From Eunapius fragilis (Eukaryota; Porifera; Demospongiae; Spongillida; Spongillidae), in the NCBI GenBank assembly GCA_963681505.1, contig OY811978.1:1424549-1488548 (forward strand): a stretch of DNA of 64,000 nucleotides. The letters are read 5' to 3'. The notes beneath the pieces were generated by a model. It had not been told where the DNA came from and searched no databases. It saw only the letters and a program-made list of their open reading frames with translations. A program made the translations under genes and the position numbers. Shown here one piece after another: positions 15,825 through 53,919 of this stretch (position 1 is its first letter; the number at the start of each line of letters is the position of its first letter).

Positions 15825-18168
15825 TTATCTAGCTGTTCCATATGCAGCATTGCTCTCTAGCTCAATTGTATTAGTTGGCTTCTGATTAATGCCCACCACC
15901 TCATATGTGGTAGCAGTAGGGATAGAAGGAGGGGCTTCAGTAGTCATAGAGGATACTTTTGGGATGTAGCAAACACATATTATGATGGTGGCCACCAAAG
16001 CCCCCAGAGAAGAGGAGATGAGAAATGTGACTGCAAATGTTATCCCAACAGCAGTAGGAGTGTTAATAGAGGAAGCAATACCTGAAACTGAATACAAAAT
16101 AAGAACGTATTATTAAGCACTATAGAAAATCAGGGTGGGGAGGAATTACTGCCAATGATATGATATTCCCATTCAAATTGATGCTGAGATTGATACAAGA
16201 CTGGTTTGAATATCACAAAGTATTCTAAGTCACTGATCTATCCAGACGGCTTGAAGCCATACCTATATGTATTACATCATTTAGAAGGCAAGACATTCAC
16301 TCCACTCAGCAACAATGGACCTGAAACTACCACAGACTGCACAGACCTCACTGTTCCATACTTACCTCTCTTCCACTATCCAATATATTGTTAATCACAA
16401 TAAATATCCTATTTAGAGCCATACATCCTAACATACATTCAAGTACCCTGGTACATGTGGACATCATCAATATGGATCACTTACTCCTTTGATTGATGTA
16501 TGTAAATGTAGTGGAATTGGTTGGTGTAGTGGTAATAGAAGCCGTATATGTGGTAAGTGGTGGTGGGCTTGGTGTGGGCCCTACAGATAAAATGATAACC
16601 ATTTGGCAATGGTTTAAAGGTCTCACCCAAGAGCTTTGCATATTTTTATAGTTTTAAAATTCAATGATTAGAATGATGTAAAAATTGTATCTTGCTTACA
16701 ACAAATTATGCCACAGGATATAGTAGCACATATATTAAATGACGACAATAGTTATCTAGACATGCAATAGTAGCTGCTAACTAATGGATGTGTACATGCA
16801 TGATCTTATTAATAGAACGGTTTCGTAATGTAAAAATATAAGGTAGGTTTCAGTATTGTGCCCTTTGATTTTACCACGCAATGCTTACAGTCAGGAATTG
16901 AAGCCAATGTTATGGCTACAGTGCTAAAAAACATTATTGTATATTATAATACCATGTATGGTACATTGATCTGTGGGCCGTACATGAGATGTAACGTTGT
17001 ATACTGGTACTGCTATTCCCAGCACAGTTGATGGCCACTGCTGAGATGTTGTAAGATGAGTCATTCCTCAGTCCAGTGAAGGTGACCATTGCAGACCCAT
17101 TGGTCACGACCACAGGAGGACTGGTGGTGTAGCTACTGTTACTGATGGTGACATTGTAGCTTGTGGTAAGACCACCACTGGGGGAGGGGGTCACCACCAC
17201 TAGCACCATGTCTGGACCAATGGTTTGTGCCGTAACATTTGGAGATCCAGGAGGAGCTGAAAATATTGCATAAACATAAGATAACATTTTGATGTGATGG
17301 TGTTATGACCACAAGTAGTTTCATGTCATGAAACTACTTCATGTCACTTAGTTTCATGTCATGTAATGAACATGTATATAGAATATGGCCTAATAGAAGA
17401 AAAAAAACAACAGATCTGTATGTGCTTTTCTAATGGCAAGCCAGTGAGCTACAGTTCACCGCAATGTTAGATACATGTGAACATTGTTATAAAATAGACC
17501 CATAGACCTTAAGAAGTACCTAAATTGCTACTAATGTACAGATTTTTAGAAGCAAATTGAGTAGTGTAGCATAGCAAGCAAAGCTACCTGGTTCGTGCAA
17601 TCAATTTTCATAAAGGGCACATCTCACTGGCTGAAGAGAGAAAACACAGCTAGGGTAGGCAAGTTATCGGACATATAGATAGGAAGGATGAGTAAAAGGA
17701 GGGAGAAGAAGGGGAGGGGTTGATGAAGGATGAGGAGATGAGGCGCAAGATGGAGGGATGAGGAGGAGGGAGGATGCATTGCTGATCTCAACCCACCTGT
17801 GATCTTCACAGTATCACTTCCCACTACAGTTCCAGTGCTACCATCTGTACACATAACAGTGGTCCCATTCAGAGCCTGAACAGCAGGAATGGTGAGGACA
17901 GATGTGTAGCATGAAGAGGTAACATTTGTTGTCACAGCAGAGAGACTGCCACATGATCCACCAGCAGTTGGAATGACTACTCCACCTGACTTCTGGAGGA
18001 GTGTTATTTGGTTAGCTGGTTGGCTTACAGTGGCAGGACACTGAAAAGCTGATCCGCTCCAAACTGTGGCAATACTATAAGTACTTGAGCTGAAAACTGT
18101 ACAGGTGTAGATGATGGTGCTTCCAGGACATGTGTAGTTGTTCACCGATGTAAAGTATGGACAGGTAA
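15825..18168 (-). CDS. Receptor gene A: Ig-like, FN3, stalk, TM and ITSM-like tail
   Basis: Proposed minus-strand exons: Ig-like 18168-17797, FN3 17256-16984, Thr/Pro stalk 16580-16485 and TM/tail 16087-15825 (stop TAA). All junctions are GT-AG and phase 1, so domains are exchangeable. The Ig-like exon is cysteine-rich (begins VTCPYFTSVNNYTCPGS). FN3 has the fold's typical SYNVTISNSSYTT and GLRNDSSYNISAVAINCAG phrases with several N-glycosylation sites. The last exon encodes a hydrophobic span (ITFAVTFLISSSLGAL and on) and a tail of about 40 residues with TTYEVV, matching the immunoreceptor switch consensus TxYxxV, and a terminal NAAYGTAR. No signal peptide exon was found; it probably lies right of 18168. 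Ligand and function are unknown. Confidence 0.75.
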
Positions 18169-18254
18169 CTATAGCCGAGTGAAATGTACAATACAAGTAA
18201 TAATACAGTACTTCTAAAATCTTATGAGCAGAGGTGGATCCAGGGTCCATTAGT

Positions 18255-18313
18255 GTGTGGGCCACCCACTCAGATAATTGACAGTCAATTATCTGAGTGG
18301 GTGGCCCCCACAC
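18255..18313. repeat. Hairpin, 28-base arms
   Basis: GTGTGGGCCACCCACTCAGA and following bases pair with the mirror segment at 18284-18313, one base of loop. It lies directly upstream of the first recognised exon of receptor gene A. A short fold-back element is the likeliest explanation. Confidence 0.9.
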
Positions 18314-19189
18314 AAATGAACTTCACATTTTTAGTGCCATCTGTTAATTTACTTGCATGCATCATCAAATCTCATACACAGGGGAGGGGCTAGCCAAGTC
18401 CCAAGCTGGAGTGCAGCCATTTTCAACAATCAGCATGCCATTGCTACTATGTAAGTTTACAACTGTCACTGTGCCACACCTACAGGTTCAGTTTACTGGC
18501 TTCACAAGAATAGGATGTTGTTCTCTTACGGAATACAATGAATAGTACCAAAAGTTTACCCAACTGCCCTCTAATTGTCTTATTTCCTCCATGTCTGAGC
18601 TTTGACTTTTCTCTATGAGTGAGCGGCTACTCTACTGTAGACAACTTTTGGGCTAATTATATATTGTAACCACTTATTATAACACTAATTATTCATATTT
18701 GGCGTCTCGCACACAGCCCTATGCGGCCATACAATTTGTGGACAAAAGGCATACCTCTTGAAATATTGAAAAAGTGGCGTAATGCCCTAGCAACCACCCT
18801 TGACAACCGACAACCTTAGAAACCTTGCACTACATGTTAACATGTTTGAACTTGTCACCATTTTAAAGCCATACAATGAATGAAGTATCTTTTTTCTATT
18901 TGTAGCCAAAGTCACATGGCCTAGTTTTCTCTCCACCGCTTTCTACGAGCGGCCATTTTTCGACGAACGCATCGACTTCAACGTACTTTTTGGACCACGT
19001 AGACAAATTCTGCGCCCCAGTTAGAAGCGAATAACAAAAGGAGACAGAAGGAACTTACAACATATAGTATGGAACTGTAGCCATACTTTTTCTTCGCAAT
19101 GGTATACGCATGTGAAGTGTACCGTGGTTTGAGCCGTGTAAACTAGCCCAGTACATATATGTGTTGACATGAAAATCAGCTGGACCACC

Positions 19190-20400
19190 CTGCCCTTATG
19201 TGCTCACTGTCAGCTGGACACCCAGCCTACCTACCCACTGTAAGTAGCTGCACCCCCTGCCCCATGTACATGTATTGGACCCCCTGCCTTCATGTACCCA
19301 CTGCAAGCAGTTGGACCCCCTGACTGCCCCCTGCCCCATGTACCCACTGTTACACTCTGTTCCCATGTACCCACACTATAATCCCCTGTCCCCATGTGCC
19401 CACTATAAGCAGCTGGACCTCCTGCCCCATGTAAATACCCACTGTTAGCAGCTGGACCTCCTCCCCCACATGTCTACTGTAAGCAGCTGACCCCCAGCCT
19501 TCATGTAAGCAGCTGGACTCCCTGCCCCCCATACACCCACCGCTACCCCATACACCCACTGCTACCCCCTGCTCTCATGTACCCACTGTGAGCAGCTGGA
19601 TCCCCTGCCCACATGTACCCTCTATAAGCAGCTGGACCCCCTCCCCCATGTACCCACTGTAAGCAGCTGGCCCCTGCCCCATGTACATTTATGCAGCTGG
19701 ACCCCCTGCCGTCATGTACCCACTGTAAGCAACTGGAACCCCTACACCATGAGTCCACTGTAAGCAGCTGGACCCCCTCCCCCATGTACCCACTGTAAGC
19801 AGCTAGACCCCTTGCCCCCATGTACCCACTGTTAGCAGCTGGACCCCCTGCCCCCCATGTACCCACTGTAAGCAGCTGGACCCCTTGCCCCCATGTACCC
19901 ACTGTAAGCAGCTGGACTCCCTGCCCCCATGTACCCACTGTGAGCAGCTAGACCCCTGCCCCCATGTACCCACTGTAAGCAGCTGGACCCCTTGCCCCCA
20001 TGTACCCACTGTAAGCAGCTGGACCCCCTGCCCCCATGTACCCACTGTGAGCAGCTAGACCCCTGCCCCCATGTACCCACTGTAAGCAGCTAGACCCCCT
20101 GCCCCCATGTACCCACTGTAAGCAGCTGGATCCCTGCCCCCCATGTACCCACTGTAAGCAGCTGGATCCCTGCCCCCCATGTACCCACTGTAAGCAGCTG
20201 GACCCCCTGCCCCTATGTATCCACTGTGAGCAGCTAGACCCCTGCCCCTGTGTACTCACTGTACTCTCTGCCCCTATGTACTCACTAAGTAGCTGGACCC
20301 CCTGCACATGCTCCAAAGTACCTACTATGAGCAGCTGGACTCCCTGCCCCATGTTCCCACAGTAAGCAGCTGGACCCCCTGCCCTCATGTACGCATTATT
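19190..20400. repeat. 36-bp minisatellite with CAGCTG in each unit
   Basis: About 30 imperfect copies of a 36-base unit: CCCCATGTACCCACTGTAAG followed by CAGCTGGACCCCCTGC. Left copies are the more diverged. Each unit carries CAGCTG, the core of some E-boxes. Long open frames on the minus strand arise because 36 is a multiple of three; nothing else supports a protein. Confidence 0.9.
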
Positions 20401-21047: not shown

Positions 21048-21055
<8 letters not shown>

Positions 21056-21101
<46 letters not shown>

Positions 21102-21124
21102 GCACACACACATACACACACATA
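21056..21124. repeat. (CA)n microsatellite
   Basis: CA repeat of about 65 bases with a few CG and TA changes, preceded by an ACCCCC-rich patch. Confidence 0.95.
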
Positions 21125-21503
21125 CCACTGCTTTATACGTTGGTTCAGCCAGGAGTTAGCGGATTAATAGTATTTGTATTGATATATACTTACCACCGTT
21201 CACTTCGTAAAGATATGAAAGTAAAAGTGCAAGTAGGATACAGAACCGCATGCCGGCGATTAGCTTCGTCCCCAGGCCCTATTTTTATTTAGTGGGACAA
21301 AAAAAATAGCGATTGGCAAGGTCTTGGTGCGCATGCGCTAGCCATTCCAGAATCTGGAGAATCGTGCACTGTTGTAATTTGGTTTGTAATCCTTTCCGTA
21401 TATTAATTCGGTTCTCCGCGTAAGCTTTACCTCGTCCCAGACCGTCGTATATGCGTCGCCCGTGGATTTGCGTAGCGCTCCATTTCGAAATCAATGCTAA
21501 GAA

Positions 21504-24500
21504 ATGGAGACAAGGAAAGAGTCAAGATCTTGCAGGATTTGTGGCAGTGTTGTGCCTCCCACACATTGGGTAGCACGCTTTTCTACAAAATCTTTGAATT
21601 CAGGTCTAGCAGAAAGGCTCAGCAAGGTTGCTGATGTCCCAGTGGCTCCAGATGATGGTTTGACTAAGTTCATCTGCGGGATCTGCTATAGGAACCTTTT
21701 GTCAGCAGAGTCATTTATAAGAACAGCCAAGGCTAGTTATGAGAAGAATAAAGCCTCACCCTCTGGCTCTGGCACTGGTGATACCATGGGTTCACAAGCC
21801 CAGATCACACGAAAAAGAACCAAGGACACCAGTGGCCCTGAGGCATCTCCTCACACTAGCCAGTGTAGACCTGTGGCCAAGCGTCTGACTCCTTACGTAT
21901 CCTGATTGCCATAACTGTAAGGGAAATATAAAACATAATGTACCACACTTGATTTATTTATGTTTACACAGCACAGACTGATTATTGCACCGAGCCACTG
22001 AGTGATAGTATCAATGATCAGGTACCAGGTACTACAGATGGCCCAGGAGACCAAGAGCTACACCCCAAATGTATCTCAGGATTTCGCTGAAGGTAAGCTG
22101 TATACATAAATTCATCAACCAAATTTACATGCACCATAGTTACAGAAGCAAGCTTAATTGTGTTGTAACCATGTGATAACATAACTGAAGATGCTATGGC
22201 TGCTCCTACATCAGTTAAGGTAAATATTTTATAAACTATAATGTTCTTAATACTTATTGTGCACAATGTATACAGATTTCTGTGTACTCACCTCGAAATG
22301 GTGCTGATGTGATCACAGTTCACTGCGCGACAACATGTAGTATGCAGAGTTATGCGGACTCTGCATATGAAGAATATACAGATACATATCATTGAAGTGT
22401 CCATATGCAGACGTCTGCATATGGACACTTCAATGATATGCGTCTGCATATTCTTCATATGCATTGTCCGCGTGACACCGTATATTACATTCTGTCACGC
22501 AGTGGTTGTCAGTCCTCAATATGAAAAGATTGTCAAGGCATTGGCTGGTGGCAACATGAAGTCGATTTGCAGAGCTTTTTTTGCCAATCCTCATCTCAGA
22601 CAGGAGGCTGTGTCCAAAGTATCCCGAATGGTTAACGATGAGTGCTCCTTGTTGTGCAAAAAGAACTCACAGCCAGTATCACTGTTCCGCCATATGTCCC
22701 TCGAGCAGGCTGAGAAATTTACATGGACTCAAGCTATTCCAGAGATTAGCACCAAGGCGCCAACTCTTATCAGCATTATGAATAACTGTGTAGTAACGCA
22801 ACGCTCAGCCAGCAGGAACAAGCACAAGAAAGGGGATGCACAGTACCTAGGCTTGTGCACAGCAGTGGCCATTCTCTTGAAGCAGCGCAACAGAGTTATG
22901 TGTGGGGTGCAGTCGTATGTATCCAGTGCTCTCTTTTCAAATAACATTCACAAGAAGGTGTGTGTGCAAGTGTATGTGTTTGTGTGTGGCATGGAAAGGA
23001 AATATGTAAATAACAGCATACTTTTTTACAGACTTGGACACAGCTGAATCACATGAATGTTACTCTCTCCTACGATGCCATTCTCAAGCGAGTAAATGAA
23101 ATAAGCCAACAACATACTAAAGTGATGGATGAATGGCTAAGAGGAGGGGCTTTTGTGAAGCTTGTAGGTGACAATGTGGACAAGCAGTGCAATGTAAGAG
23201 ACATCAGGAGTGACCATCACAGGGAACTTAAGATACATGTTCAGCCTACTGGCAATAAAGGCCTACATCTCACCTCCGGCTCCTCTGCCTGAGTTCTCAC
23301 CACCTAGCCTCATGTCACATCATTTAGACTGCTTTCTGCTATCTCGAGAGGATATGAAGGTTATTCTGAGTGACAAGGAGGTGCTTGTTGCTAGAATACT
23401 GTGCGATTATGTGAAGGACCTGCGTCAGCTGAAGAAGTTTGTTGTCCCTCACATTCCACACACCTACAGTGACAAGATGGCAGTCAAGTCTGACGTCCTT
23501 GTGTTGGATGTGCTGCACAAGAATGAGACCAAGAGCAGTGACATGGTGCACGTAATGAGAGAGATAGCCTCATACTTAGGAGCATCGTACAGCCATGTAG
23601 CTCTTATAGGGGGCGACCATGTCACTTGTGAACGAGAACAGGGTGCGAAGTGTCATGTGATGTGCTTCAACACACGAGAGGGTCGACTTGAGCAGCTGGA
23701 GCCATGTGTAGAGGACTGGCACTGCGTCATGAACTTCATGATGGTAAGTACATGTAGTACATTACATACACATGATAATTCAGTGTGACTATTGGTATAT
23801 TACATGTACATGTAGCTTTGATTTTCTGCAGTTGATTTGGCAAAAGCTTGTGAAGATCAGTCCACGAGACCATGGATCACTCACCCAACTCTTTACAAGA
23901 CTTGGACGGTTGGCCAAAGCTAAAAAACCAAAGGATGACATGCACGCTTGCCAGGATGCATTACTCACTGTGTTCAAGGGACACATAGTGGCAGCTGCAT
24001 GTAGATCTCGAGCTAAACATAGGAGAACCTGAAGGGGACATAAATGATATAATCGTAAACATGTCTTTGTTGAATGACTTGACCATGAAGGTGGCTAGAA
24101 GGTTTACAGTGATTCCAGAGGCTTTTCTCAATGAGAGTGTACCAGACACTGGTGATCGAGTATACAGCTATGCACAGGTCCTCTGCCACTTTGCAGGTAT
24201 AGTCCATCTCTTCACCGACACTTGCAAGGAAGGAGATGGAGAACGTGTCATCAGGTGTTGGAAGTTGTGTACGCTCACTTCCATGCAGAGAGGAAGACGA
24301 AATATGCACTTGAGGCTCTAAGAATACAATTCCAACTTGTTACTCTCCAGCCATACCTTGTGCACCAGCTGACCTGGGGAAGGTTTGTGAATACCCATGG
24401 TGGCAAAGGGCGAAACATTCCTTGTGATCTCCACAATGAGCATGTAAACAAGCTGTACAAAGAAATAATAGGGAACATGGGAGCTAACTTTACCGAGTTT

Positions 24501-25079: not shown

Positions 25080-26867
25080 TCAGCAATAATCACAGCAAAG
25101 TGTACTGTCACGGGATCCCAATGTCATGGCCACATCTGGGTCAAAGTACTTCAGCAACATATACCTGCGACAATGCTCAGTATTCTCTAGATAGTCTCTG
25201 ACGTCCTTCAATTCCTTGTAACGATGGACACTCTGGTTTGCATACACAGGAGCTTCACATGGTTTCCAATAAATTCTGGACACAGACTGTTGGTGATCTC
25301 TGCCAGCTCTGCCACTCTCCTGCACGTAGTCTTCAAGAGAACGAGGAGCACCATAGTGGATAATGTAGCCTAAGCTCTTGAAGTCAACCCCCATACCAAG
25401 TGCCATCGTTGCAAAACTACTCGTAAGACACTATCACTCTCTCTTAGACTGGACATAACCACCCTCTTGTTGTGTTCATCAGTACAAGAGTGGAACATGG
25501 CAAATAAATGGTTGTCACTGATGTGTTCAGCATCTGAAGGATAGTAGCTAGCGTCTTGTAGAACATGGAGAAAGTGAGCATACAGAGATGCACACATATC
25601 CAGAGATTGGCAGTACACCACAACCCTCTGGGCTTTGACCTTATTTGCAGCTACATCCCTGATGATACATTCAAAGTCCTCCTCAATGGTTTTCTTTCGA
25701 GTCACCTCGTAGCAGATGTTTGGCTTGTTAGGAGACTCAGACACAATGAAACAACCTCCCATGTCTAGCTTTTCAATGATGTACTCCCTCATTCTCACAG
25801 TTACTGTAGCAGTAGTTGCAAGCATTGGAACACCAGGTGGCATAAAAGCCCTTAGGTCTTTCAGTGCACCAAATGAAGGGCGAAAGTCTTTGCTCCTGCA
25901 TAGTGGAAACATTGAATTGTTTTTTATTTTACTAAAGCTACTTACCACTTGAAGACACAGTGTGCTTCAACAACAGCTACTGCCACAACGCTAACTGACA
26001 GAGGAGGACAGACAAGAAATTGTCTCCACAATGTGTCTTACCAAGAATGGCCTCAGGAGCACTGTACAGGAGCTGAAAATGACCAAGAGACACTTGTCTC
26101 TCACTGGCAATTAGTTCCTTGTTTGCACAAATAAGAAGAAAACCTCAATGACACATTGGCATCTAGATCTGGTTTTTAAACATAGGAATACTTACCCTTG
26201 TTTCCAGAGAGTATTGCAGCATTAACACCTCTCTTCTGTAGACCAGAGACTTGATCGACCATCAGGGAAACTAGTGGAGAAATCACTAGGACTGAGCTAC
26301 GTTGATCTTGTGGAGCGGTGGTGCGCTTCAGTTTGAAGTCGAACATGAACGCAGTGGCGGCGGAAGGGGGGGGGAGGGGAGCTGGGGGGTCTCGAGCCCC
26401 CCCAATAATGACATAGGGGGGGCTCAGCCCCTCCTAACCAAACGACAGTACAATTGTTATTCTTCGCCTGCGAGATCGCTCGCGTATATACCGTTATCAA
26501 TTTATATTATGACATCCAGAAAAGTTTAGATCTGTCGCCATAGAAGACCGCTCGATGTAATTTCTTACCCCCCCCGGCGGAAGAAAGGAATATGGTGAAC
26601 AAATGCCCCCATTGAAATTCATGAATTTAATTATCCTCGCTTTTGGAAGCCCCCCCCAATCATACCGTCCGCCCCCTGGAACGGTAAGAGTTGGTAGCAA
26701 ATTGACTTCCCGTACCCAGTAGGAAACCAAGCGAACACATCCCGACCATTGTACAGATGGAAAAGTGTTTCCTCCTGCTTGGCCTTGAGTACTAGGCTTT
26801 CCTAGTGAACACACCTTAGAGAATAAGCTACCGCTAAGGCTTCGCGGAACACAGCTGAATACGCCAT
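25080..26867 (-). pseudogene. RecQ-like DEAH-type helicase of the transposon, degraded
   Basis: Minus-strand exons: 26867-26196, 26117-25946 and 25895-25080. Superfamily II/RecQ motifs in order: Q-motif-like region KAKQEETLFHLYNGRDVF, Walker A PTGYGKS (motif I), VLVISPLVSLMVDQV (Ia), LYSAPEAIL (Ib), a motif II that reads VEAHC instead of DEAHC, LATTATVT (III), VVVYCQS (IV), ATMALGMGVDF (V), QESGRAGRD (VI), then a RecQ-type cysteine region (CRRYMLLKYF, CCDYC). Damage seen: an in-frame TAG just before the Q motif, frame changes near 26050 and 25405, the lost motif II aspartate, and a 327-bp MITE inside exon 1. The family unwinds DNA 3'-5'; here the role would be in transposition, which is an inference. 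Confidence 0.8.
26352..26678. mobile_element. 327-bp MITE inserted in the helicase exon, with GAACG duplication
   Basis: It starts CAGTGGCGGCGG at 26352 and ends CCGTCCGCCCCCTG at 26678, giving short inverted ends (CAGKGGSGG). GAACG flanks it on both sides (26347-26351 and 26679-26683). Without the insert and one GAACG, the helicase frame reads directly across the site (CYQLLPF then MFDFKLK), which supports an insertion. The interior has G- and C-rich runs and no gene. The same start motif occurs at about 57544. Confidence 0.85.
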
Positions 26868-27155: not shown

Positions 27156-27271
27156 CAGCAGCAGGAATCGGCCAGAGTGATAGCCCGTAGGCGTTGCGTA
27201 TACGAAAAGTTTTCACGACCTGGCCGTAGATATTACATGTAGTCGCCGTAATCGACAGCGCCGTCAAGCAG

Positions 27272-27441
27272 TCAAGTTACAATGTCGCCATCAGTAACAG
27301 TAACTACACCACCAGTCCTCCTGTGGTCATGACCAATGGGTCTGCAATGGTCACCTTCACTGGACTCATCTCACAACATCTCAGCAGTGGCCATCAACTG
27401 TGCTGGGAATAGCAGTACCAGTATACAACGTTACATCTCAT
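27272..27441 (+). pseudogene. Inverted FN3 exon fragment of the receptor family
   Basis: On the plus strand, opposite to all other copies, lies the 3' part of the FN3 exon found in genes A, B and D. It includes TTSPPVVMTNGSAMVTFTG and NISAVAINCAGNSSTS equivalents and ends at the same donor (TCAT then GTATGT). A gap of about a dozen bases removes the RNDSSY segment and shifts the frame. It is an isolated exon with no partner on this strand, so it is a relic moved by rearrangement. Confidence 0.8.
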
Positions 27442-31133: not shown

Positions 31134-34100
31134 TTATCTAGCTATTCCATATGCAGCATTGCTCTCTAGCTCAATTGTATTAGTTGGCTTCTGATTAATG
31201 CCCACCACCTCATATGTGGTAGCTGTAGGGATGGAAGGAGGGGCTTCAGTAGTCATAGAGGATACTCTTGGGATGTAGCAAACACATATTATGATGGTGG
31301 CCACCAAAGCCCCCAGAGAAGAGAAATGTGACTGCAAATGTTATCCCAACAGCAGTAGGGGTGTTAATAGAGGAAGCTGCAAAAATCCCAACAGCTATAG
31401 GAATGTTAATCACTTGACATATAAAACTGGAAACAAGAACATATGACATACAATGTCAGGCAAGCACACAAGATGTACTAAGCTGAATAGCAAGCCATTA
31501 ATATCAATATTCAACAATTCAGTAAGAATCCACATGACATTACAAGCCAGCAACATTGGTCAGCTGGCACATGGACCACTAGGTCAGCCGGCACATGGAC
31601 CACTAGGTCGGGTGGCACATGGACCACTAGGTCAGGTGGCACGTGGACCATTAGGTCAGGTGGCACGTGGACCACTAGGTCAGGTGGCACGTGGACCACT
31701 AGGTCAGGTGGCACGTGGACCACTAGGTCAGGTGGCACGTGGACCACTAGGTCAGGTGGCACGTGGACCACTAGGTCAGGTGGCACGTGGACCACTAGGT
31801 CAGGTGGCACGTGGACCACTAGGTCAGGTGGCACGTGGACCACTAGGTCAGGTGGCACGTGGACCACTAGGTCAGGTGGCACGTGGACCACTAGGTCAGG
31901 TGGCACACGGACCACTAGGTCAGGTGGCACACGGACCACTAGGTCAGGTGACACACGGACCACTAGGTCAGGTGACACACGGACCACTAGGTCAGGTGGC
32001 ACACGGACCACTAGGTCAGGTGGCACGTGGACCACTAGGTCAGGTGGCACGTGGACCACTAGGTCAGGTGGCACGTGGACCACTAGGTCAGGTGGCACGT
32101 GGACCACTAGGTCAGGTGGCACGTGGACCACTAGGTCAGGTGGCACGTGGACCACTAGGTCAGGTGGCACGTGGACCACTAGGTCAGGTGGCACGTGGAC
32201 CACTAGGTCAGGTGGCACGTGGACCACTAGGTCAGGTGGCACGTGGACCATCAGGTCAGGTGGCACGTGGACCACCAGGTCAGGTGGCACGTGGACCACT
32301 AGGTCAGGTAGCACGTGGACCACTAGGTCAGGTGGCACATGGACCACTAGGTCAGGTGGCACATGGACCACTAGGTCAGGTGGACTGTTAGATGTGTGTA
32401 GTAGTTTTGTTGTGCAATTTGATTTGCAAATATGCATTTTGCTGCTTGCTGTTAAATGGCATACAAGCATACACAAATGCAATGTTGTTGTCACATTCAG
32501 TACAGTCAAAACCAAAACCCAAACATTCATCGCAACCCATAACCGTTATGTCAACATAGTGACTGTGTGCACACATTGTCTGGTAGCATAAATAATGAAA
32601 ACCATTTAGCAGAAGTCGACAATAGGTTGTTCCTATGTGGAACACAAAGTAACCAAATGTGCAAACTAAAGAATTCTGAATATGCTCATATGTGTGCACA
32701 TGGACATAAATATAATACCTACATGTAGATGGTGATGATGTTGATGATGTAGAAGTGGTTGGTAGAGGTGATGGACTTGGGGCAGGACCTGAGTACAGAT
32801 ATATGGAGTACTTATCTAGCATATCTCCATACATATGATTGTACCATTACATCATACACACAGACCCTCCTCCCCCTCAGAAAAATAATCGTTAGCACAA
32901 GTTCAGGATAGTGTGCCCATCTGAGCATACAAACACATCATTGTCATTATGATTAACCCTAATCCTGTCAGCCACACATCCAGTCAGCCATGCATTTCAT
33001 CCATTTTATCCCTGCGAGATCTGGCCATAATAATACAGTAACATAGGGGCAGGCCTTATATTGCACAAAGATATGGAGCATATATCCCATATATGGTATA
33101 CATGGATACATGTACATTACATCATGCATACAGAGGTCACCTGTACCAAACCTGTGTACATACATGAGATGTTACGTTGTATACTGGTACTGCTATTCCC
33201 AGCACAGTTGATGGCCACTGCTGAGATGTTGTAAGATGAGTCATTCCTCAGTCCAGTGAAGGTGACCATTGCAGACCCATTGGTCATGACCACAGGAGGA
33301 CTGGTGGTGTAGCTACTGTTACTGATGGTGACATTGTAGCTTGTGGTAAGACCACCACTGGGGGAGGGGGTCACCACCACTAGTACCATGTCTGGACCAA
33401 TGGTTTGTGCCATAACATTTGGAGGTCCAGGAGGAGCTGAATATATTACATAAGACAAAGTGGATCACTTACTAAAACCACTGACGTTGGATGAAGCTAG
33501 ACCGCAAGCTCTATCAAATAATAGGCGTAGGAAATTGGAGCAAAAGTGGGTGTAGACTCAGGGATTTGGTGTCTGATCTATTCTATTTAACTTTAATAAG
33601 GATACGTAAAAAAAAAAAAACATATACATGTCATGGCTGTAGTCAGATAACATGGTGTGAATATGAACACTTGAAATGAGTAATATAAAATAGCAGGATG
33701 TTTAGCCTTTGCAGGGACAACTCTTCATAGTCTGATCACTCATAACTGCTCAGACTGCCACTTGATAATGATTAATAGCAAGCCTAAAGTTGGATCACAG
33801 AGTTTCATTAAAGTGAAGAAGTTGAGGACGGGGGGGGGGGGGGGGGGGGGGGCCTTGCAATATTTTTGCCTTCCCATGCCCTGAGAATTCCCTAATAGTA
33901 TCGATGTTTTAACTTCCTCTCTCTAAAATGTGTTTATTGAACTATTCTTCTCCGGCTTATAAGTAATCAAAATATAATAACAATAAGCATCATGACGAAG
34001 AAGACAGCTCCCAACCACCTGAAATAACCATAATACAGTTACATTCTTACCTATGACCATGATTAGGGTGGTGTTCACTATAGTATTCTGACCAGCTAAA

Positions 34101-36143
34101 GATCGGGTTCCAACCATGATCAGTGATGATGTCATACCAGTGTTCACTCTCACTGTCAAGGTACTAGTCAGACATGGTGTGGATGGACCAGGATCCACAT
34201 TGGTTGCTGTATATGGTCCACAGGTCATGGTCACACCTCTGCAAGCATCTGCAGACTGAGTTAGCACCATGCTATCTGGTGTGTTAGAACTACTGCATGA
34301 TCCACTGGGCAGGACCCATAGGTTGCTACCAACAAGAGCTGGGACAGTCCCTGTAAAGGTCACCTGGTCCCCAGGACAAGCTACAGGAGGACATGGTACA
34401 ACATTTCCTGTGACCTGACATGTCAGTGTCTGGGCATGGACTGGGGAAGAGGGTTATGTGTAACACAAGATAGATCTAATTATATCTACTGGTGTATATG
34501 TTAATACCATATAAGTACAGACATACTGGAACATGTACTGATGCAGGATTTCATCGAGGCCTCCCCCCCCCTCCCCTTTAAAAATGTATTCATTTGCTCA
34601 TGCATCAATTCTAATGTAGCTTCATTGTATAAAACGAATATTGATCTACATGTACGGTCATTACTCTATGTGAGCATACATATGCTGTTTTTTCCCTTCA
34701 AACCACAATGTTCTCTAATTGTGTAGCTACATACCTATGTTGTGTTGAGTGTTACTTTTTTATCGAACTTTACAAAAGTTTGGAGGCACACTCCCACCTC
34801 TCCCAGTGCCCTTTCTCCTACCCACATTTATAAGACCACTACTTATTCTACATTGTCAGCCCTTTTACCAGGCATAACGCACTGTGGAAAAAAATTTTAT
34901 CGCCTCCCTCGAAAATTTATCAACTGAACTTTTTGCCCCCCCCCCCCCCCCCCCCTTTCCCCTTTGAGGTTTTTTCACGATGTAATGTGGTACATGTATA
35001 AGTACTGCCATACCGGAACATGTACTGATGTGGTATGTATAAGTATGGCCATACTGTACGAATACTAGATGTAAAAATATTAGCACCTATAGTCTGGCCT
35101 CCTAAAGAGCTACATTGAAACTAGCTGATGCAGCCATGTTTACAGTATATGCATATGGGATAGCATAACCAACATCACATTGGATGATCCTCATCAAAGC
35201 AAAACATCTGATACATACCTCTGACAATGTAGTAGAAAAGCAGTGACAGTAGTCTCAACATCTTGATATCCTACAAAATAATTTAATGTATTTTGAATTG
35301 TGTGATTTAATTTGGTGGCAAAAAACCACGCCCCTAATAAACACAGGCCATCTGGAAAAGAAAGAGGAGTTCCATCTGTATGCAAGGGAAGACAGCCATA
35401 TTGACCTGCAGACCCATTCATGCACGATGTGAAAGATATTTGCTCAAGATGAGGTTAACTTATGCTTATACGTACGGTCGAGAGGCATATCTAGGGCCAA
35501 CCCTACAACACCGCGTTGTATGCCTAAGTATCAATTAGACATGTTTCTGACCTTATACATATGTATACAAGATAATACGCTCAGCCCTTCAGGAAATAAA
35601 ATAAAACATACTTGTGCCTTCATTGGCGCATCCCATGTTTCTTCATGACGTTCTAATTGCTTCACGTCACTATAAGGCTATACCAAAGTAGTTCCTGCAA
35701 TTGAGAATGCTTGAATATTATTGCAACATACAGATTAGCGTCAGACAATACATATTTGTGCACGGGTTGCTCTGACAGTTATATATCAGGACGCATAGTA
35801 TAGTTCGTTCAAGCTGTGCAACTACATGTGGTGGCTTAAGGGCAAGCTTTATCATCATCACAAACATGATAGAGAGACAGGCTCTTGAACATATTTATGG
35901 CACAGGTTAGGTGACCATAACGATATATAAATAATAAATACATATAGTATTGTATATGTACCCAGCTATATGGCAATACATCTAATCTAACAGCATCAGT
36001 TGTTTTATAACACCTATGAAATAATTAAATCAGTTGTTTTAAAACACCTATGAAATAATTATTTTTAAGTGTATAGAGTTTTTCACAGTGTAGGGCAAAC
36101 TACATGGACTTACCATGGGGAGAAAGAGCTGTATAGTGAGCAT
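31134..36143 (-). CDS. Receptor gene B: Ig-like, FN3, stalk, TM exon altered
   Basis: Exons on the minus strand: 36143-36114, 35269-35219, 34440-34051 (Ig-like), 33436-33164 (FN3), about 32786-32716 (Ser/Thr/Pro stalk), 31425-31134 (TM/tail). The first two exons join in frame to a signal peptide MLTIQLFLPMDIKMLRLLSL (continuing LFYYIVRVHA). The Ig-like exon begins TLTCQVTGNVVPCPPVACPG. FN3 is nearly identical to that of gene A. In the last exon, an 8-base gap near 31322, relative to the other copies, shifts the frame inside the transmembrane span and ends the protein near 31246, so the usual TTYEVV tail is not reached. The product might be non-membrane or the gene dead. A TATA-like TATAAAGG (minus) lies about 56 bases before the start. 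Confidence 0.75.
31558..32391. repeat. 24-bp minisatellite with a CACGTG E-box in most units
   Basis: About 34 head-to-tail copies of GGTCAGGTGGCACGTGGACC+ACTA. Variation is low: the outer units and a middle block (about 31905-32010) have CACATG or CACACG in place of CACGTG. Because 24 is a multiple of three, open frames cross the array on both strands (GQVARGPL on +, PPDLVVHV on -). It lies in the intron between the stalk and TM exons of receptor gene B, so a coding role is not supported by the gene model. CACGTG is a palindromic binding site of bHLH factors such as MYC, USF and MITF. Confidence 0.9.
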
Positions 36144-39270: not shown

Positions 39271-39274
39271 AGCA

Positions 39275-39510
39275 CTATCTAGCTGTTCCATATGCAGTTT
39301 TACTCTCTAGCTCATTTGTATTGGTTGGCTTCTGATTAATGCCCACCACCTCATATGTGGTAAGAGGATACTCTTGGGTGTAGCAAACACATATTATGAT
39401 GGTGGCCACCAAAGCCCCCAGAGAAGAGGAGATGAGAAATGTGACTGCAAATGTTATCCCAACAGCAGTACTAGTATGAGTGTTAACAGAGGAAGCTGCA
39501 ATAACTGAAA
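39275..39510 (-). pseudogene. Orphan TM/tail exon of the receptor family
   Basis: Encodes the conserved transmembrane span (ITFAVTFLISSSLGALVATI) and a tail with TTYEVVGINQ and TAYGTAR; stop at 39275. An internal deletion removes the SSMTTEAPPSIPTA part but keeps the frame. The acceptor is intact at 39511. By position within the duplicated block it corresponds to the last exon of gene C (50116-50381); the rest of that gene copy is absent. It could also act as an alternative last exon for gene D, 850 bases upstream on the minus strand. Confidence 0.75.
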
Positions 39511-42500
39511 CTGGAAACAAAGCAAGAACTAATTATTAAATATTATAAAAAACTGGGGTAAAAATGGATGCCACGCTTAACGTGTATGCAAGGGAAGCCA
39601 GATAGCCATTTTGACCTGCAGACTGATACTGCCATGATGATTCGCTCAAGATCAGATGGTGTGTGTTATCTTATGCATAGTGACATGTCTGTACCAGTAG
39701 CAATTTATGACACTAGGACTAGTGACAAGATCAGAAACCCTACAGGGTCAGCAGCCCATAGGGTTAGGGTTTGATGGCTAAGCAGCTACTGGACCACGTT
39801 GTTTGCTCTAATAATGATCTGAGGACAGGGTTAAATAATTTAACAGGTTAGTAGAAGGGGTGGGGTGGGGGGGGGGGGGGGGGAGCGCCATTGAGTTCCC
39901 CCGCTCCTGGGGATGCCACATGAACTGGTGAGTGACCTCTTCCCCAGGCCCAATGGCAGACTCTCCTTCTAATGGAACGTCACCATGCTTTCACAGCACC
40001 ACTGGGTCCAACATATACAGTGGACGTTTTTGGTTGATCAATGACAAATGAAAACCAATGACTATTGATCATTTTTAAAAACCAAAGATTAAATTTAATG
40101 CACTCACATGTCATTGAATGCCTGTTGTGTGTGTATACATGCATGTATTAAAATTTTGTGAATTCAGTGATGGGACTAGAAGTTGAACTGGATTCTTAAG
40201 TTGTTCTAGCACATAAGATACAAGATGAGTAGTAGGGCAATGATTTCTCTAACAGCACTGTTTTCATTAATATACCAATTTTAATACATGTATACAGAAA
40301 CAACTAAAAATCTTGACAACAAAATAATATTAAAACTGGCAATGTTTTATTCAGCACTATCTAGCTATTCCATATGCAGCATTACTCTCGAGCTCAATTG
40401 TATTGGTTGGCTTCTGATTAATGCCCACCACCTCATATGTGGTAGCAGTAGGGATGGAAGGAGGGGCTTCAGTAGTCATAGAGGATACTCTTGGGATGTA
40501 GCAAACAACACATATTATGATGGTGGCCACCAAAGCCCCCAGAGAAGAGGAGATGAGAAATGTGACTGCAAATGTTATCCCAACAGCAGTAGGGGTGATA
40601 ATCATGACAGCATTTGACATTGAAACTGAAAAACAAGAACAGTCATATGGATTACAATGTCTAGCAAGCACACAAGGTGTACTCAGCCTATTAAATTCAC
40701 TAAGAATATATTACATATATAATACAATTATATATACATGGATGAGCACTAGATTTACATACAGTAGAATAGCACAGTCACTTGACAAACTAACAACATT
40801 GGATTCTGCTAAATGTTGGCAAAGACAATTGAGTGCAGTTGTGTACAATGGAAATGTATTTACATTGGCCATACAAGTTGGGATGGAACGATTTAGGGTT
40901 TTCATCAGATCACAGCCTGTCTGGAAGCCAGTTATGAAGAGTCATTCAGTGTCCCACTACCCCTGGCTATAAAGGAATAAACTACCCCTGGCTATAAAGA
41001 TATTAACAACCAGAGGCACCCCAGCTTATATCACTGGAGCCATGTTTCTGGTAATGTAAGTGCATTTAGTAGTCAAGACATTTTTAAAGTCAGGAGATCC
41101 AGACCAAGTCCAGATACCAGCCTGGAGTGGCTGACTCAAAGACCACATCACATGAACTGTTTTGCCTGATAACTACTCAACTTTTATGGTGGTCTAAAGG
41201 AATCAGGCAGGGCTTAACCATGCAGGGAACTTCAAGCCATCAATTGATGGCAAATGGTAACCAAGATGAAGGCCAAAACCCTTGGACATAAGAGATGGGG
41301 AGAAAGCAGACTGAAAATGTGCCTTGTCTGCTGAACTCACCAGGCACCCTCTCCCTCAAGGCATTCAGCTAGCTCATGGACCACACACATGTATGCAGTA
41401 CTACTGTTGTATGATTTTATAGATAGTATTTCTAATATGCTTTTTGCTGCTTGCTGTTAAATGTCATACAAGCATGCACAAACACAATGCTGTTGTCATA
41501 TTCAGTACAGTAAACACCAAACCCAAATTTTTCATCACATGACCTTTAAGGCTGGTGTCAACAAAGTGACTATGTCCACACATTGTCTGGTAGCATAGCT
41601 ATTGACATTAAAAATGAAAACCGCTTAGTGTAAGTCCACAAATAGGTTGTTCCTATGTGGAACACAAAGTAACCAAATGTGCAAACAATACTGAAATATG
41701 CTCATACTACACATGGGCACATAAATATAATACCTACATGTAGATGGTGATGGTGATGGAGATGATGTTGATGATGTAGAAGTGATACGTAGAGTTGATG
41801 GACTTGGGGCAGGCCCTGAGTACAGATATATGGTGTACTTGTGGAGCACATCGCCAAACATATGCCTGTACCATTACATCATGCACACAGAGGTCATCTG
41901 TACCAAACCTGTGTACATACATGAGATGTAACGTTGTATACTGCTATTCCCAGCACAGTTGATGGCCACTGCTGAGATGTTGTAAGATGAGTCATTCCTC
42001 AGTCCAGTGAAGGTGACCATTGCAGACCCATTGGTCATGACCACAGGAGGACTGGTGGTGTAGCTACTGTTACTGATGGTGACATTGTAGCTTGTGGTAA
42101 GACCACCACTGGGGGAGGGGGTCACCACCACTAGTACCATGTCTGGACCAATGGTTTGTGCCATAACATTTGGAGGTCCAGGAGGAGCTGAAAATATTAC
42201 ATAAACATATACATGTCATGGCAGTAGTCAGATAACATGGTGTGAACATGAACACTTAAATTGAGTAAAATAAAATAGCAGGATGTTTAGCCTTTGCAGG
42301 GACAACTCTACATAGTCTGATCACTCATAAATGCTCAGACTGCCACTTGCTACTGATTAATAGCAAGCCTAAATTGGATTGCAGGGTTTCATTAAAGTAA
42401 AGTTGTTCGGGACAGGGGGGGGGGGCAGCTGGAGGCAGGGGGAGTGGGTGAGAGGGGGAGTGGCATTTGACTCCCTCGCAATATTTTTGCCTTCCCTTGC

Positions 42501-44098
42501 CCTGAGAAGTGCCTAATAGTATCAAAGTGTTAACTTCTCCCCTCTAAACTGTGTTTATAAAACTATTCTCCCCCAGTATAAGGCTTATCAGTAATCAAAA
42601 TATAATAACACTAAGCATCATGACGAAGCAGACGGCTCTCACCACCTGAAATAACCATAACACAGTTACATCCTTACCTATGACCATGATTAGGGTGGTG
42701 TTCACTATAGCATTCTGAGCAGATAAAGATCGGGTTCCAACCATGATCAGTGATGATGTCATACCAGTGTTCACTCTCACTGTCAAGGTACTAGTCACAC
42801 ATTGGTTGCTGTGTATGGTCCACAGGTCTTGTTCACACCACTGCAAGCACCAGCAACCTGAGTTAGCACAATGCTATCTGGTGTGTTAGAACTACTGCAT
42901 GATCCACTGGGCAGGACCCATAGGTTGCTACCAACAAGAGCTGTGGTAGTCCATGTAAAGGTCACCTGGTCCCCAGGACAGGCTACTGGAGGACATGGTA
43001 CCACACCTCCATTGACCTGACATGTCAGTATCTGGGCATGGACTGGGGACGAGGGTGATGAGTAACACAAGAAAATCTATGTTTAAAATACCATATCATA
43101 CTGGAACATGTACTGATGCAGGATGCAGGATTTCATCGAGCGTCCCCCCCTTGCAATTTTGGAGTAATCTTTGTTTAATGTATTAATTTACTCATGCATC
43201 AATTCTAATGTAGCTTCATTGTATATAATGGACACTAACCAATCTCTGCTAGCTCTACATGCACAGTCCTTACTCTATGTAGGCTGCTGTTTTTTGTAAA
43301 TATTAAAAAATTTTCTTCAAACCACAATGGAAGACTTTTCTTTCATTTCTCTAATAGTGTGCTACATACCTATGTTGTTTTGAGTGTTCCTTTTTATCAA
43401 ACTTTACAAACGTTTCCCCGCAGGCACACTCCCACCTCTTCCAGTGCCCTTCTCCTCCTACCCACATTTATAAGACCACTACTTATTTCATGTTGTCAGC
43501 CCTGCGGAAAAAACTTTTTTATCGCCTCCCTCTGAAAATTTATCAACTGAACTTTTGCCCCCCCTTGAGGTATTTTCACAATGAAACCCTGCTAATGTGG
43601 TACATCTATAAGTATGGCCGTACTGGAACATGTACTGATGTGGTACATGTATTAGTGTATTGTATGAAACTTCATGTAAAAATGTTAATACCTCTAGTCT
43701 GCCTCCTTAAGAGCTACATTGAAACCAGCTGATGCAGCCATGTTTACAGTACATGCATATGGGATAGTATAACCAACATCACATATTGGATGATCCTCAT
43801 CAAAGCAAACATCACATGAACATACCTCTGACAATGTAACAGAAGAGCAACGACAGTAGTCTCAGCATCTTGATATCCTACAAAATAAATACTTCAATGT
43901 ATTTTGAATTGTGCATTTAATATTGGTGGCCAAAAACCACGCCCCTAACAAACACAGGCCATCCGGAAAAGAAAGAGGAGTTCCATCTGTATGCAAGGAA
44001 GACAGCCGTATTGACCTGCAGACCCATTCATGCACGATGTGAAACATATTCGCTCAAGATGCTTATACGTACGGTCGAGAGGGCCAACCCCTATATTA

Positions 44099-50115: not shown

Positions 50116-53100
50116 CTATCGAGCCGTTCCATACGCAGCATTGCTCTCGAGTTCAATTGCATTGATTGACTTCTGATTAATGCCCACCACCTCATATGTG
50201 GTAGCAGTAGGGATGGATGGAGGGGCTTCAGTAGTCATAGAGGATACTCTTGGGATGTAGCAAACACATATTATGATGGTGGCCACCAAAGCCCCCAGAG
50301 AAGAGGAGATGAGAAATGTGACTGCAAATGTTATCCCAACAGCAGTAGGAGTGTTAATAGAGGAAGCTGTAATGACTGAAACTGAAAACAAAGCAAGAAC
50401 TCATTATTAAATATTATAGAAAACTAGGGGTAAAAATGGTTGACAATTTTTTTTCCATGCATAGTAAGTTGTGCTGAGATTGATACATTAATCACTGCAC
50501 CACAGCATTTGGTATGCAGAGCTGTGCAGAGTCTGCATTTCAACCGCATGCAGACAGGTACCATTGAAGTGTTCGTCTGCAGACGTCTACAAACGAACAC
50601 TCATCTGCATATGGTTGGTATGCACAACTCTGCATACTAAATGCTGTGGCACAGTGAATATCACAAAGTTGTTAAGAGCTAATATTAGGTCATGTGCATC
50701 ATATCAGATCTATCCAGAGTGCTTGAAGCCATACCTATATGCATTACCTCATTTAGAAGGTAAGACCCTGCAACAGCTATGGAAACCGCAGACTACACAG
50801 ACCCATACCTACCCATATATCCCATATCTATATTTGGACTGTGATATTATTTGGACATGCACTATATTAATACATTGGTACATACCTTATGCCTGTGTAA
50901 ATATATGCATATTTTAGCAATCATAATTGAACCCTACTAGAGTGCTGAGGTATTCTACAAAGCCTTCAATGTGGATCACTTACTAGGAGTGGTGCATGCA
51001 CACGTGGTACAATTGGTTGGTGATGTAGTAATAGTGACACTACAAGTGGTAAGTGGTGATGGGCTTGGTGGAGGCCCTACGTAGAAGAAGACAATAAATG
51101 TATGCATGAATGTACTGATGTTTATTGTACATAAAACTTCAGGCTTCTAGACAACACAACAGTAAAGAGCAATATTCTGCTTACAACAAGAGGTGCCACC
51201 TATTGCAATCAAAATAGATTAACCAGAACTAACCCATCAATGAATACCATACGTTTCAGGGATTCATCTGTGGCACATGTATTGGTCATCCTGTTTTCGT
51301 ATGAGAGTGAAAACAGTAATCAAAACGCATGAAAATATGGTATGCAACTCTGTAGAGCATCTAGTTTCAGTTCCACTAAATTACCGTCAATGATCCTGCA
51401 CCATACATTATGGTGTGCATGGTACTGTAGTGCACAAATTAGAGTACTAGGATATCTATTAGACATGCAATAGAAGTTCAATACTATTGGGTTAAATACA
51501 TACATGTGTACTAACCTGATAAAGCAGAATTTTATAATGTTGAATAATACTTATTATACTATTCATACACATAACACAACTACACTTAATATAATATTAA
51601 GGACAAAGCATCTGGACAGATATCTGGAGCATACCAAGAACAGAAGCTGGTTCTGGAAATATACAGGATTAGAACTGAACTCAAGAGTGCAAAAACAATT
51701 TTATATTATACCTGGGTGTGTAACAAAGATTTTGGACGTGTTGGCCACACCCACATGACCATAGAAGGAGGCCCAGTAGAATCCTTGTGTGGTGAGGTTA
51801 ACAGAGGAGATGGTGAGAGAGGCATTGTAGGTGATGGGAACAGTTGAGGCATCAGAGACAGAGATGTTGGAGATGAGGTATAGATCACTGGGCTTCACCA
51901 TGGAGCCATTCATGTACCACTGGACATGGTCAGGAGGAGGGTATGACATCACTTGTATCATCAGGGTAGTACTACCACCTCCACCCACCACCACTACAAA
52001 ATTCTTGATGGGTACAGGGACCAGACCTGAGTTTTGAAAAAGAAAAAAAAAAAAACATTGGCCATTTACATTGTCACACATCATCCTGCATTGCATGTAT
52101 AGCGTCGTAGACCACAGTACATGTACTCACTTGAGACCATCACTCTCCACTGTTCCCAAACTGAGCTGGTTCCATTGGACACTGAACACTGGTACATGCC
52201 TGAGTCCCCCTCCAAAAGACCATTCATGGTCATGTTGGACCCTCTGATCTCCACACGTGGACCAGGGGACACCTCCTCTCCATTCCTGTACCACATAGTC
52301 ACCACGCCCATTGCAGTAGCTTCACAGGTGAAGGAGACATTGGTGCCCACTGAGTTGTCCAAACTGTCACCAGGACTTGAGGTCATCACCAGGTTGGTCC
52401 TTGCTGGTCAGAGGAACAAGGGAGGTTAGCATTACAGCCAGTATATGTCCACCCACCTAGGACAGTTAGTGTGGCTGTGTAGACACTACCACTGACCCTG
52501 CATGCCACCACTGCTCCACTGTCCACTAATGACACTGGACCACCTACAAGTCCAACTACTTTGGACGTAAGTGTAAGATATGATCCATCAGAAGAAAGCC
52601 AACAGGTCAAATAATCTATTGGTCCAACATCAGCAGCCACGATTGAGAACTGGATATTCGTATCTCCTTCATAAGCTGTGACATCTTGAAGTGGTTTGTA
52701 GATAGTCAGTCCAGTCCTTGGAGAAGCTGAAGGAGGGGATGGGGGGGGGGGGGGGAGGAACCTCACCTTGTGTACTGGGGAAGAGAGGGGACTCACCAGT
52801 TATGTTAAACCGATATCTTGTTGGGCTGTCGATTGATAACCCTCCAAAGGCATTGGTTACTCTACAGTGAAATACTCTCTTTGCAGTCAGCGGGTCAACC
52901 CCAATGATAGCAAGGTATCGTCCTCCCTCCAGGTATAGGAACTTTGTCCCATTAGAGGGCACAGTTTGGTTGAGGCCATCCACCCAGATGATTGAAGGTG
53001 GAGGGTTGGACCATGAGACATTACAGTAAAGGGCCACACTGTCCTGATCAGGTGGATTGGATGTGTTTTTTGCACTGTATGTGATGTCTCCTCCCTCTGA

Positions 53101-53919
53101 AACTGAAAATATAGAAATGGTCTAAACATGTGAACTCATATCATGTGTAGCCAACTCACATGCATAATAGACATTGGCTATTCTGCTTCGGATGGTTCCA
53201 TACTGAGCACTGGTAGCTCTGCAGTGGTAGGGGATGCCCCCTCTGGAAGCATCCACTCCCTCCACCACAGCGGGTATGACCAGTGAGCCGTTGACCACAC
53301 GGACTCCAGGTCCAAGAACTGGTGCAGGGGGCTTCCCCCTATACCACGTTATGGTGGTCGGGGAGGGTAAGCCTTGGGTAGTACACGCAAGCCACAGGCT
53401 ATCTTTAACCACACAGTCCTGTGGCTGCTGCAGGAAGCTCGCAGCAGCCGCCACATGGAAAAGTATCACTGTAGAATCAAACAGTAATATGGCTAGCGCA
53501 ATGCTGTAATCTTTCAACACTCAATTATAATAAACCGCACCACCATATGCGTGTAGGCTATCTGACCTTCGCGACGGTCTGACAACCAACCAGTCGTTAA
53601 TTTCTTGATGTGTTCTCAAAATCCCACATCGATTTATAAATGCGCGGATATATGCCTAATTCCCGTTGCTAAATGCATTAGCAGTGAACATTAGGTCCGA
53701 GAGTTCGAACGCTAAAAGAATTGCTGTAACAGTTTGAAGCTACTAGCTGCATGCAACAGGCAGATACCTAGCTAGTAAACCCAAATTTATCCAGCATGCC
53801 ACACTTGACTGTTCAACTCGGATAATTTTTACTTTTAAACACGCAGTAAGCGAAAGCTTTAGTACAGGTCACTGAACGCTTATTAAGTGCCACAACTTAC
53901 CACCTATAGATGCAGCCAT
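50116..53919 (-). CDS. Receptor gene C: signal peptide, five Ig-like domains, stalk, TM and ITSM-like tail
   Basis: Eight minus-strand exons: 53919-53901, 53468-53160, 53102-52797, 52726-52457, 52403-52131, 52026-51712, 51076-50984, 50381-50116. Every junction is GT-AG and phase 1, and the frame is open throughout, so the gene looks intact. Exon 1 plus the start of exon 2 gives a signal peptide (MAASIGVILFHVAAAASF). Exons 2-6 each encode one Ig-like domain; the fifth exon is clearest (FTCEATAMGVVTMWYRNG, GDSGMYQCSVSNG). Exon 7 is a Pro/Thr/Cys stalk (GPPPSPSPLTT). Exon 8 has the TM span and a tail with TTYEVVGINQ, matching TxYxxV, and NAAYGTAR. Predicted cell-surface receptor or adhesion protein; ligand unknown. 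FN3 is absent, unlike genes A, B and D. Confidence 0.85.
50493..50656. mobile_element. Fold-back MITE, 164 bp, near the 3' end of receptor gene C
   Basis: Ends CACTGCACCACAGCATT and AATGCTGTGGCACAGTG are inverted; the centre contains GTCTGCAGAC. Same architecture as the element at 22321-22504. It lies in the intron between exons 7 and 8 of gene C. Confidence 0.8.

Follow-up and report, generated by a model that had tools for sequence, protein, structure and literature searches.

Does a run of related transmembrane genes in the demosponge Eunapius fragilis encode recognition receptors that vary their outer parts on a shared signalling tail? The question is raised by a 64-kb window (the whole stretch of DNA analysed) on a contig that we call C8, and we addressed it by searching 24 contigs of the genome, 219 Mb in all. 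The minus strand of the window carries five exons coding for a transmembrane (TM) span and a cytoplasmic tail, at about 15.9, 31.2, 39.4, 40.5 and 50.2 kb, which are the places where an earlier note on this DNA had put them, and TTYEVV is found in each of the five. Two copies depart from the tail quoted there: the 31.2-kb copy has a frameshift within its TM span, and the 39.4-kb copy is shortened, part of the tail upstream of TTYEVV being missing. The five tail exons accompany four ectodomain units, A to D, in an interval (15825..53919) whose ends are the stop of gene A and the start of gene C. With moderate confidence, we read these genes as probable clustered type I receptors for recognition or adhesion, in which heads can be swapped on a tail that docks through tyrosines.

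Gene A could be modelled whole, from signal peptide to stop, as five exons joined by four GT-AG introns and encoding 351 amino acids (aa). Its product runs from the signal peptide through a cysteine-rich head, an FN3 domain and a Ser/Thr/Pro stalk to the TM span and a tail of about 47 residues (Table 1). The signal exon is supported because an identical peptide lies upstream of a paralogous head at a second locus (L121). Gene C stays open for 497 aa through six exons including the start codon. All introns of these models are in phase 1, namely four of four in gene A and five of five between the first six exons of gene C; the earlier note had reported this phase for every intron checked except one pair. 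Gene A looks intact from its sequence, and gene C does so over the modelled part; B and D look broken, the former by its TM frameshift and the latter by a frameshift in the head near 42.8 kb. The tail exons at 39.4 and 40.5 kb stand behind one ectodomain unit and are possible alternative last exons; between them, no open reading frame (ORF) of 80 aa or more was found on the minus strand. In unit B, a minisatellite with a 24-bp period separates the FN3 and stalk side from the TM exon, and repeats reading PPDLVVHV also lie between the FN3 and TM exons of loci L107 and L108. A minisatellite ahead of the TM/tail exon in these three cases is possibly an aid to recombination.

For the ectodomains of A, B and D, the proposal of an FN3 domain holds, as all three exceed the Pfam cut-off; the cysteine-rich head, previously called immunoglobulin (Ig)-like, had no Pfam match and is Ig-like only putatively. 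Unit A carries a head of type II, and B and D carry type I. The two types are 20–28% identical and have cysteine and tryptophan positions in common when aligned. Six type II heads and two heads from contig C3 keep a cysteine at both places of the Ig disulphide (YTC or similar at one; VMC, ITC or VSC at the other), and seven type I heads from C8 have neither. This paired presence or loss fits an Ig fold, as a reading of the alignment that no profile backs. Comparison of the heads with the PDB gave no match up to E 10, and with nothing over the Pfam cut-off either, we rejected the head as a known domain. An Ig profile reaches significance in gene C (I-set, 5.8e-9) and not in the heads. Of the five Ig-like domains that had been proposed for gene C, this one is over the curated cut-off, three are under it with E values of 1.1e-6 to 1.2e-3, and for the third in order nothing matched at E 0.1 or better.

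Genome-wide, the tail exon matches 118 places. These belong chiefly to clusters on C8 and C3, and the rest are on C1, C2, C4, C6, C7, C16 and C20. Head type I matches 68 places, type II 120 and each of two FN3 types (a and b) at least 150. All of these are counts of exon matches, not numbers of genes; some matches are pieces of a single exon, and related queries overlap. Among the tail-exon places are identical matches on opposite strands. The family is thus clustered and duplicating, as the earlier note had it, and its varied outer parts indeed sit on a shared TM/tail exon. On C8 between 0.1 and 2 Mb, each of the four possible pairings of head and FN3 type is found with a TTYEVV-type tail no more than 6 kb away (I/a 10, I/b 2, II/a 7, II/b 3), and such a tail is also present with the five-Ig ectodomain of gene C. 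At locus L114, several FN3-like ORFs and an Ig-like one were seen by eye ahead of a tail of the C3 type. The head/FN3 mosaics, gene C and L114 therefore support an exchange of exons among genes.

We examined 90 of the 118 tails and removed two with internal stops, which left 88 (86 distinct). The pattern NxxY occurs in 87 of these, N.[AS]YG in 83, YxxV in 79, Y[ED]xV in 75, TxYxx[VI] in 44, YDxV in 20 and the pattern of the immunoreceptor tyrosine-based inhibitory motif (ITIM) in 14. The tail tyrosines are conserved in other members of the family, on which the earlier note had made its claim depend: the first (Y1) is present in 81 of 88 tails and the second (Y2) in 87 of 87. The N and Y of NxAYG, found in all 87 tails long enough to include them, rank first for conservation in the tail alignment; next come a juxtamembrane Cys, the motif's G and A, and the V and Y of YxxV. 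Both the N and the Y are invariant although the tail groups are mostly only 37–53% identical to the query. TTYEVV fits the consensus TxYxxV/I/L of the immunoreceptor tyrosine-based switch motif (ITSM) of SLAM-family receptors (PMC3958483). The suggestion of an ITSM in the tail is good for all five tails of the window and fails for the family, in which just half (44/88) show TxYxx[VI] and NxAYG is better kept. The deep signature of the family is hence NxAYG together with YxxV, and ITSM, which fits one subset, is too narrow as a label. Since shuffling of the gene A tail yields each single motif often (TxYxx[VIL] in 7.7% of shuffles, YxxPhi in 45%, NxxY in 17.5%), a lone motif in one tail is weak evidence; TxYxx[VIL] and N.[AS]YG arise jointly in 0.02%. 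The tail exon had no match of note in Pfam or the PDB and was rejected as a known family. We know of no partner of NxAYG, for which no literature search was made, and we take NxxY to be reminiscent of phosphotyrosine-binding (PTB) domain motifs. In one family tail (locus L085, C8:296334-296588), Y1 is lacking and a proline-rich stretch, PPPLPPPYSPPPLPP, is present along with NDAYG; we presume this to be a variant that perhaps binds SH3 or WW domains.

The tail motifs bear on two other explanations. YxxPhi is a signal for the clathrin adaptor AP-2, and YxxV could be such a sorting signal in a tail without phosphotyrosine signalling. Its occurrence in 79 of 88 tails regardless of the residue at −2 is in line with sorting, but the +1 residue is acidic in 75 of 88, which is more typical of SH2 (Src homology 2) sites, and sorting leaves NxAYG unexplained, so that we regard it as unlikely. 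The genes might also be ordinary adhesion receptors that serve no self/non-self recognition and are linked to actin via SH2 adaptors, as nephrin is by Nck. Ig plus FN3 is a usual layout of adhesion molecules. Of the 20 tails with YDxV, 19 are of the C3 type, in which TVYDEV is found, and YDEV is a site in nephrin, with Nck binding these nephrin tyrosines (PMC3237483). The window's own group, however, has YEVV, with YDxV in none of 36 tails, and high copy number and recombined heads seem to us unusual for housekeeping adhesion. We consider this explanation possible but rather doubtful.

We asked how far the likeness of the tails reflects recent copying. Divergence at synonymous (dS) and nonsynonymous sites (dN) and their ratio omega (dN/dS) were estimated after Nei and Gojobori in matched genes, chosen by hand, of which five have head I and five head II. 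For these two sets, dS was 0.24 and 0.20 in the head, 0.03 and 0.06 in FN3, and 0.09 and 0.11 in the TM/tail exon. Over 1000 independent codon bootstraps, head dS never fell to FN3 dS or below; it did so relative to tail dS in none (head I) and in 2.1% (head II). The FN3 exons of 14 genes (91 pairs) had a median identity of 97%, compared to 58% and 61% in their 200-nt flanks and 54% in shuffled flanks, and in 25 of the 91 pairs the exon was over 95% identical while both flanks were below 60%. Local alignments among 13 genes (156 ordered pairs) covered 77% of exon versus 22% of intron positions; the introns mostly fail to align between genes, though some still do. Because dS is low and flanks and introns have diverged, the near-identity of the FN3 and TM/tail exons points to recent exchange or conversion largely limited to exons. 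Much of the identity of tail and FN3 is, judged from these alignments, recent copying or gene conversion. The tail described as 'near-constant' in the earlier note does keep its tyrosine motifs across distant groups, but the constancy within the C8 group is partly the product of such recent copying or conversion.

With a dN of 0.14–0.16 in the heads against 0.03–0.07 in the tails, these sequences show faster change in the heads but do not show diversifying selection. Over 16 genes of C8, omega was 0.38 in the TM/tail exon and 0.32 in its cytoplasmic part. Selection on the tails is modest within groups and shows between distant groups. That the likeness stems from recent duplication and gene conversion alone, with tail motifs of no special role, would agree with the low dS in FN3 and TM/tail, with similarity largely confined to exons and with an omega of up to 0.78 in one tail group. 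This explanation is weakened by motifs that persist between the divergent tail groups described above and by the invariant N and Y of NxAYG in 87 tails, and we consider it very improbable.

If the genes are recognition receptors, their putatively Ig-like heads would bind varied partners in trans, on self, non-self or microbial cells. Binding by the variable head would lead to clustering and so to phosphorylation of the YxxV tyrosine by a Src-type kinase; the phosphorylated YxxV would dock SH2 proteins, and NxAYG could offer a second contact, for docking or for sorting. The signalling half would stay alike through gene conversion or exon exchange while the heads drift apart. Every step here beyond the anatomy is one that we infer. 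Genes for SH2 domains, which the earlier note had named as a check, were found in part: SH2 matches lie at 70 places in the genome, some partial or with stops, and at four places on contig C9 an SH2 and a kinase match lie in a single open frame. No SHP-like gene joining SH2 to a protein tyrosine phosphatase (PTP) and no SAP-like gene was identified when the SH2 matches were compared by eye with the PTP matches listed (150 of 365 PTP candidates scored). Contig C10 holds a large cluster of tyrosine-phosphatase exon matches, mostly at 5.5–8.5 Mb.

Several results weigh against the recognition-receptor reading. Two of the four units in the window look broken, and of 102 heads on C8, 38 have a recognised tail within 6 kb and 64 lack one. 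None of 15 heads passed the Pfam cut-off, one giving a weak ig match at E 0.18. Head omega was 0.66–0.83, not above 1, with a 95% bootstrap range of 0.44–1.02 over the two five-gene sets. In some groups the TM/tail exon taken whole is under weak constraint, with an omega of 0.78 for 26 C3-type tails, 0.58 for the genes with head II and 0.53 for 13 tails at 4.2–5.6 Mb of C8. Seven of 88 tails have another residue in place of Y1 (four Cys; Ala, Pro and His once each), and YxxPhi arises readily in shuffles of a single tail, as given above (45%). The broken copies and the identical matches on opposite strands also fit a family of receptors that recognise microbial patterns, have diversified through birth and death of genes and play no part in allorecognition, and sponges under microbial challenge regulate genes containing Ig and FN3 domains (PMC6208332). 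The present data do not separate microbial from self ligands, and we hold a purely microbial role to be conceivable, though on the unlikely side.

A further observation concerns the strands. At 1.0–2.1 Mb of C8, all 18 tails lie on the minus strand, and a tail within 6 kb was found for 13 of 18 minus-strand heads versus none of 15 plus-strand heads (Fisher p 3e-5, with neighbouring copies treated as independent). The bias is not contig-wide, since eight of the tails below 1 Mb are on the plus strand and five on the minus. In one plus-strand unit (L103, C8:432 kb), no TM exon was seen by eye in about 3 kb past the FN3 exon, the last 2 kb being largely minisatellite. Kinase or receptor-phosphatase ends for such units were rejected, though weakly, there being no listed PTP place on C8 and one listed kinase place, at 3.49 Mb and outside the clusters (150 of 365 PTP and 134 of 1095 kinase candidates scored). 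The proline-rich tail of L085 was likewise rejected as their other end, its only close matches being itself and one exon on C7. The plus-strand genes may be relics, secreted, or carriers of another tail. Tentatively, and with less conviction than doubt, one may envisage a sponge histocompatibility-type complex in which swappable heads sit on a homogenised signalling half and plus-strand sisters share heads and FN3 but have another end. If true, an early-branching animal would have a paired-receptor design, tail versus tail, in which NxAYG would serve for docking.

Table 1. Features of the receptor genes in the window (positions in the window)
Feature	Position	Strand	Basis
Gene A exon 1, signal peptide MRFCILLALLLSYLYEVNG, donor GTAAGT, phase 1	21194..21251	-	splice model
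Gene A exon 2, cysteine-rich head type II (putatively Ig-like)	17797..18168	-	no Pfam match
Gene A exon 3, FN3 type a	16984..17256	-	Pfam fn3 1e-6; splice sites
Gene A exon 4, Ser/Thr/Pro-rich stalk	16485..16580	-	splice model
Gene A exon 5, TM span and tail (TTYEVV, NAAYG) to stop	15825..16081	-	splice model
Unit B head type I	34046..34438	-	paralog comparison; no Pfam match
Unit B FN3 type a	33165..33434	-	Pfam fn3 2.2e-6
Unit B minisatellite, 24 bp, FN3/stalk side to TM exon	31438..32433	.	repeat seen in sequence
Unit B tail, upstream TM frameshifted	31137..31322	-	tail sequence
Unit D head type I, 79 aa up to the frameshift; remainder in other frame (ORF 42598-42873)	42798..43034	-	
Unit D FN3 type a	41922..42185	-	Pfam fn3 6e-6
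Unit D TM/tail	40360..40596	-	tail sequence
Second TM/tail exon, about 0.8 kb downstream of that of unit D, shortened before TTYEVV	39278..39532	-	
Gene C exon 1, start codon, phase 1	53901..53919	-	splice model
Gene C exon 2, candidate Ig 1 and end of signal peptide	53160..53468	-	Ig_3 3.3e-5, below cut-off
Gene C exon 3, candidate Ig 2	52797..53102	-	Ig_3 0.0012, below cut-off
Gene C exon 4, candidate Ig 3	52457..52726	-	no Pfam match up to E 0.1
Gene C exon 5, Ig 4	52131..52403	-	I-set 5.8e-9, over cut-off
Gene C exon 6, candidate Ig 5	51712..52026	-	Ig_3 1.1e-6, just below cut-off
Gene C TM/tail ORF (gene C model covers exons 1-6, upstream of the join of exon 6 to the tail)	50119..50400	-	

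On the plus strand of the window, degenerate pieces of FN3 type a, one with stops, lie at 27230-27440 in the orientation opposite to the units, and a TM-like ORF near 32.4 kb was rejected as a family tail. Just upstream of gene A, ORFs on the plus strand (21501-21902 and 23198-23785) match zf-AD and DUF6589 over cut-off and may belong to a mobile-element gene. A piece of a RecQ-type helicase (Helicase_C and RecQ_Zn_bind over cut-off) is found at 25083-25430 on the minus strand, and a Pfam search with the adjoining ORF, 25373-25966, gave no match. Two further plus-strand matches are an integrase-core-like ORF at 210-956, slightly under the curated cut-off, and TOG/HEAT-like pieces at 2614-3707, under their curated cut-offs. 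Elsewhere in the genome, C10 has three loci for a cathepsin-like protein with CGASYAF, in which Ser replaces the catalytic Cys; the other cathepsin-like loci in which the motif was found keep the Cys. We take CGASYAF to be the silicatein signature, a mark of demosponges, and accordingly regard the organism as one that bears spicules.

We compared the family with characterized receptor systems. The Hydractinia Alr family comprises 41 Ig superfamily (IgSF) genes in an allorecognition complex, with motifs of the ITIM or ITAM (immunoreceptor tyrosine-based activation motif) type on candidates (PMC11999971, PMC12065747), and resembles the sponge genes by layout, in being clustered candidate receptors with tyrosine motifs in the tail. 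Unlike Alr, the sponge family has heads without a Pfam Ig match, FN3 after the head and one type of tail exon common to many genes. Botryllus FcoR, with 53 loci of IgSF type I proteins bearing ITIM, hemITAM or core YxxI/L/V motifs (PMC12065747), is alike in this motif core (YxxV in the sponge tails), but has Ig and sushi ectodomains and long tails. Measured against the Alr/FcoR class, the sponge genes are clustered and gene A is type I, whereas an Ig profile match is found in gene C only. SLAM receptors have a CD2-type Ig ectodomain and bind the SH2 domains of SAP/EAT-2 or SHP; in the sponge, A, B and D show an unmatched head plus FN3 and the best match of C is I-set. Further differences from SLAM are that the ITSM is not kept across members and that the motif is single. 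Geodia sponge adhesion molecules (SAM) are said to be sponge membrane proteins with Ig-like domains. The CEACAM paired receptors evolve in concert, with gene conversion in exons more than introns (PMC7042247), an exon bias like that seen here; there, however, the binding part is homogenised and the tails differ, whereas in the sponge family the heads differ and FN3 and tail are homogenised. The sponge aggregation factor, an extracellular proteoglycan complex for cell recognition (PMC11999971) that is mentioned alongside allorecognition in sponges (PMC11999971, PMC12065747), is in contrast not a transmembrane receptor family.

No publication on the present family was found by title or start of abstract among the matches listed, in a search that left most subscription journals and all bioRxiv preprints outside. 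In a term search of its main text, an Amphimedon graft transcriptome paper (PMC5450542) contained none of immunoglobulin, Ig-like, fibronectin, ITIM and tyrosine. Candidate allorecognition proteins are described as not conserved between sponges, cnidarians and ascidians, with ITIM/ITAM-type motifs in the latter two (PMC12065747). By analogy in layout and motifs, and with no claim of relatedness, the sponge family may work like the Alr and FcoR receptors. With variable heads on a conserved YxxV tail, sponges would gain a sequence-defined candidate, as a third lineage, and it would become possible to test for convergence on tyrosine signalling in the self-recognition of early animals.

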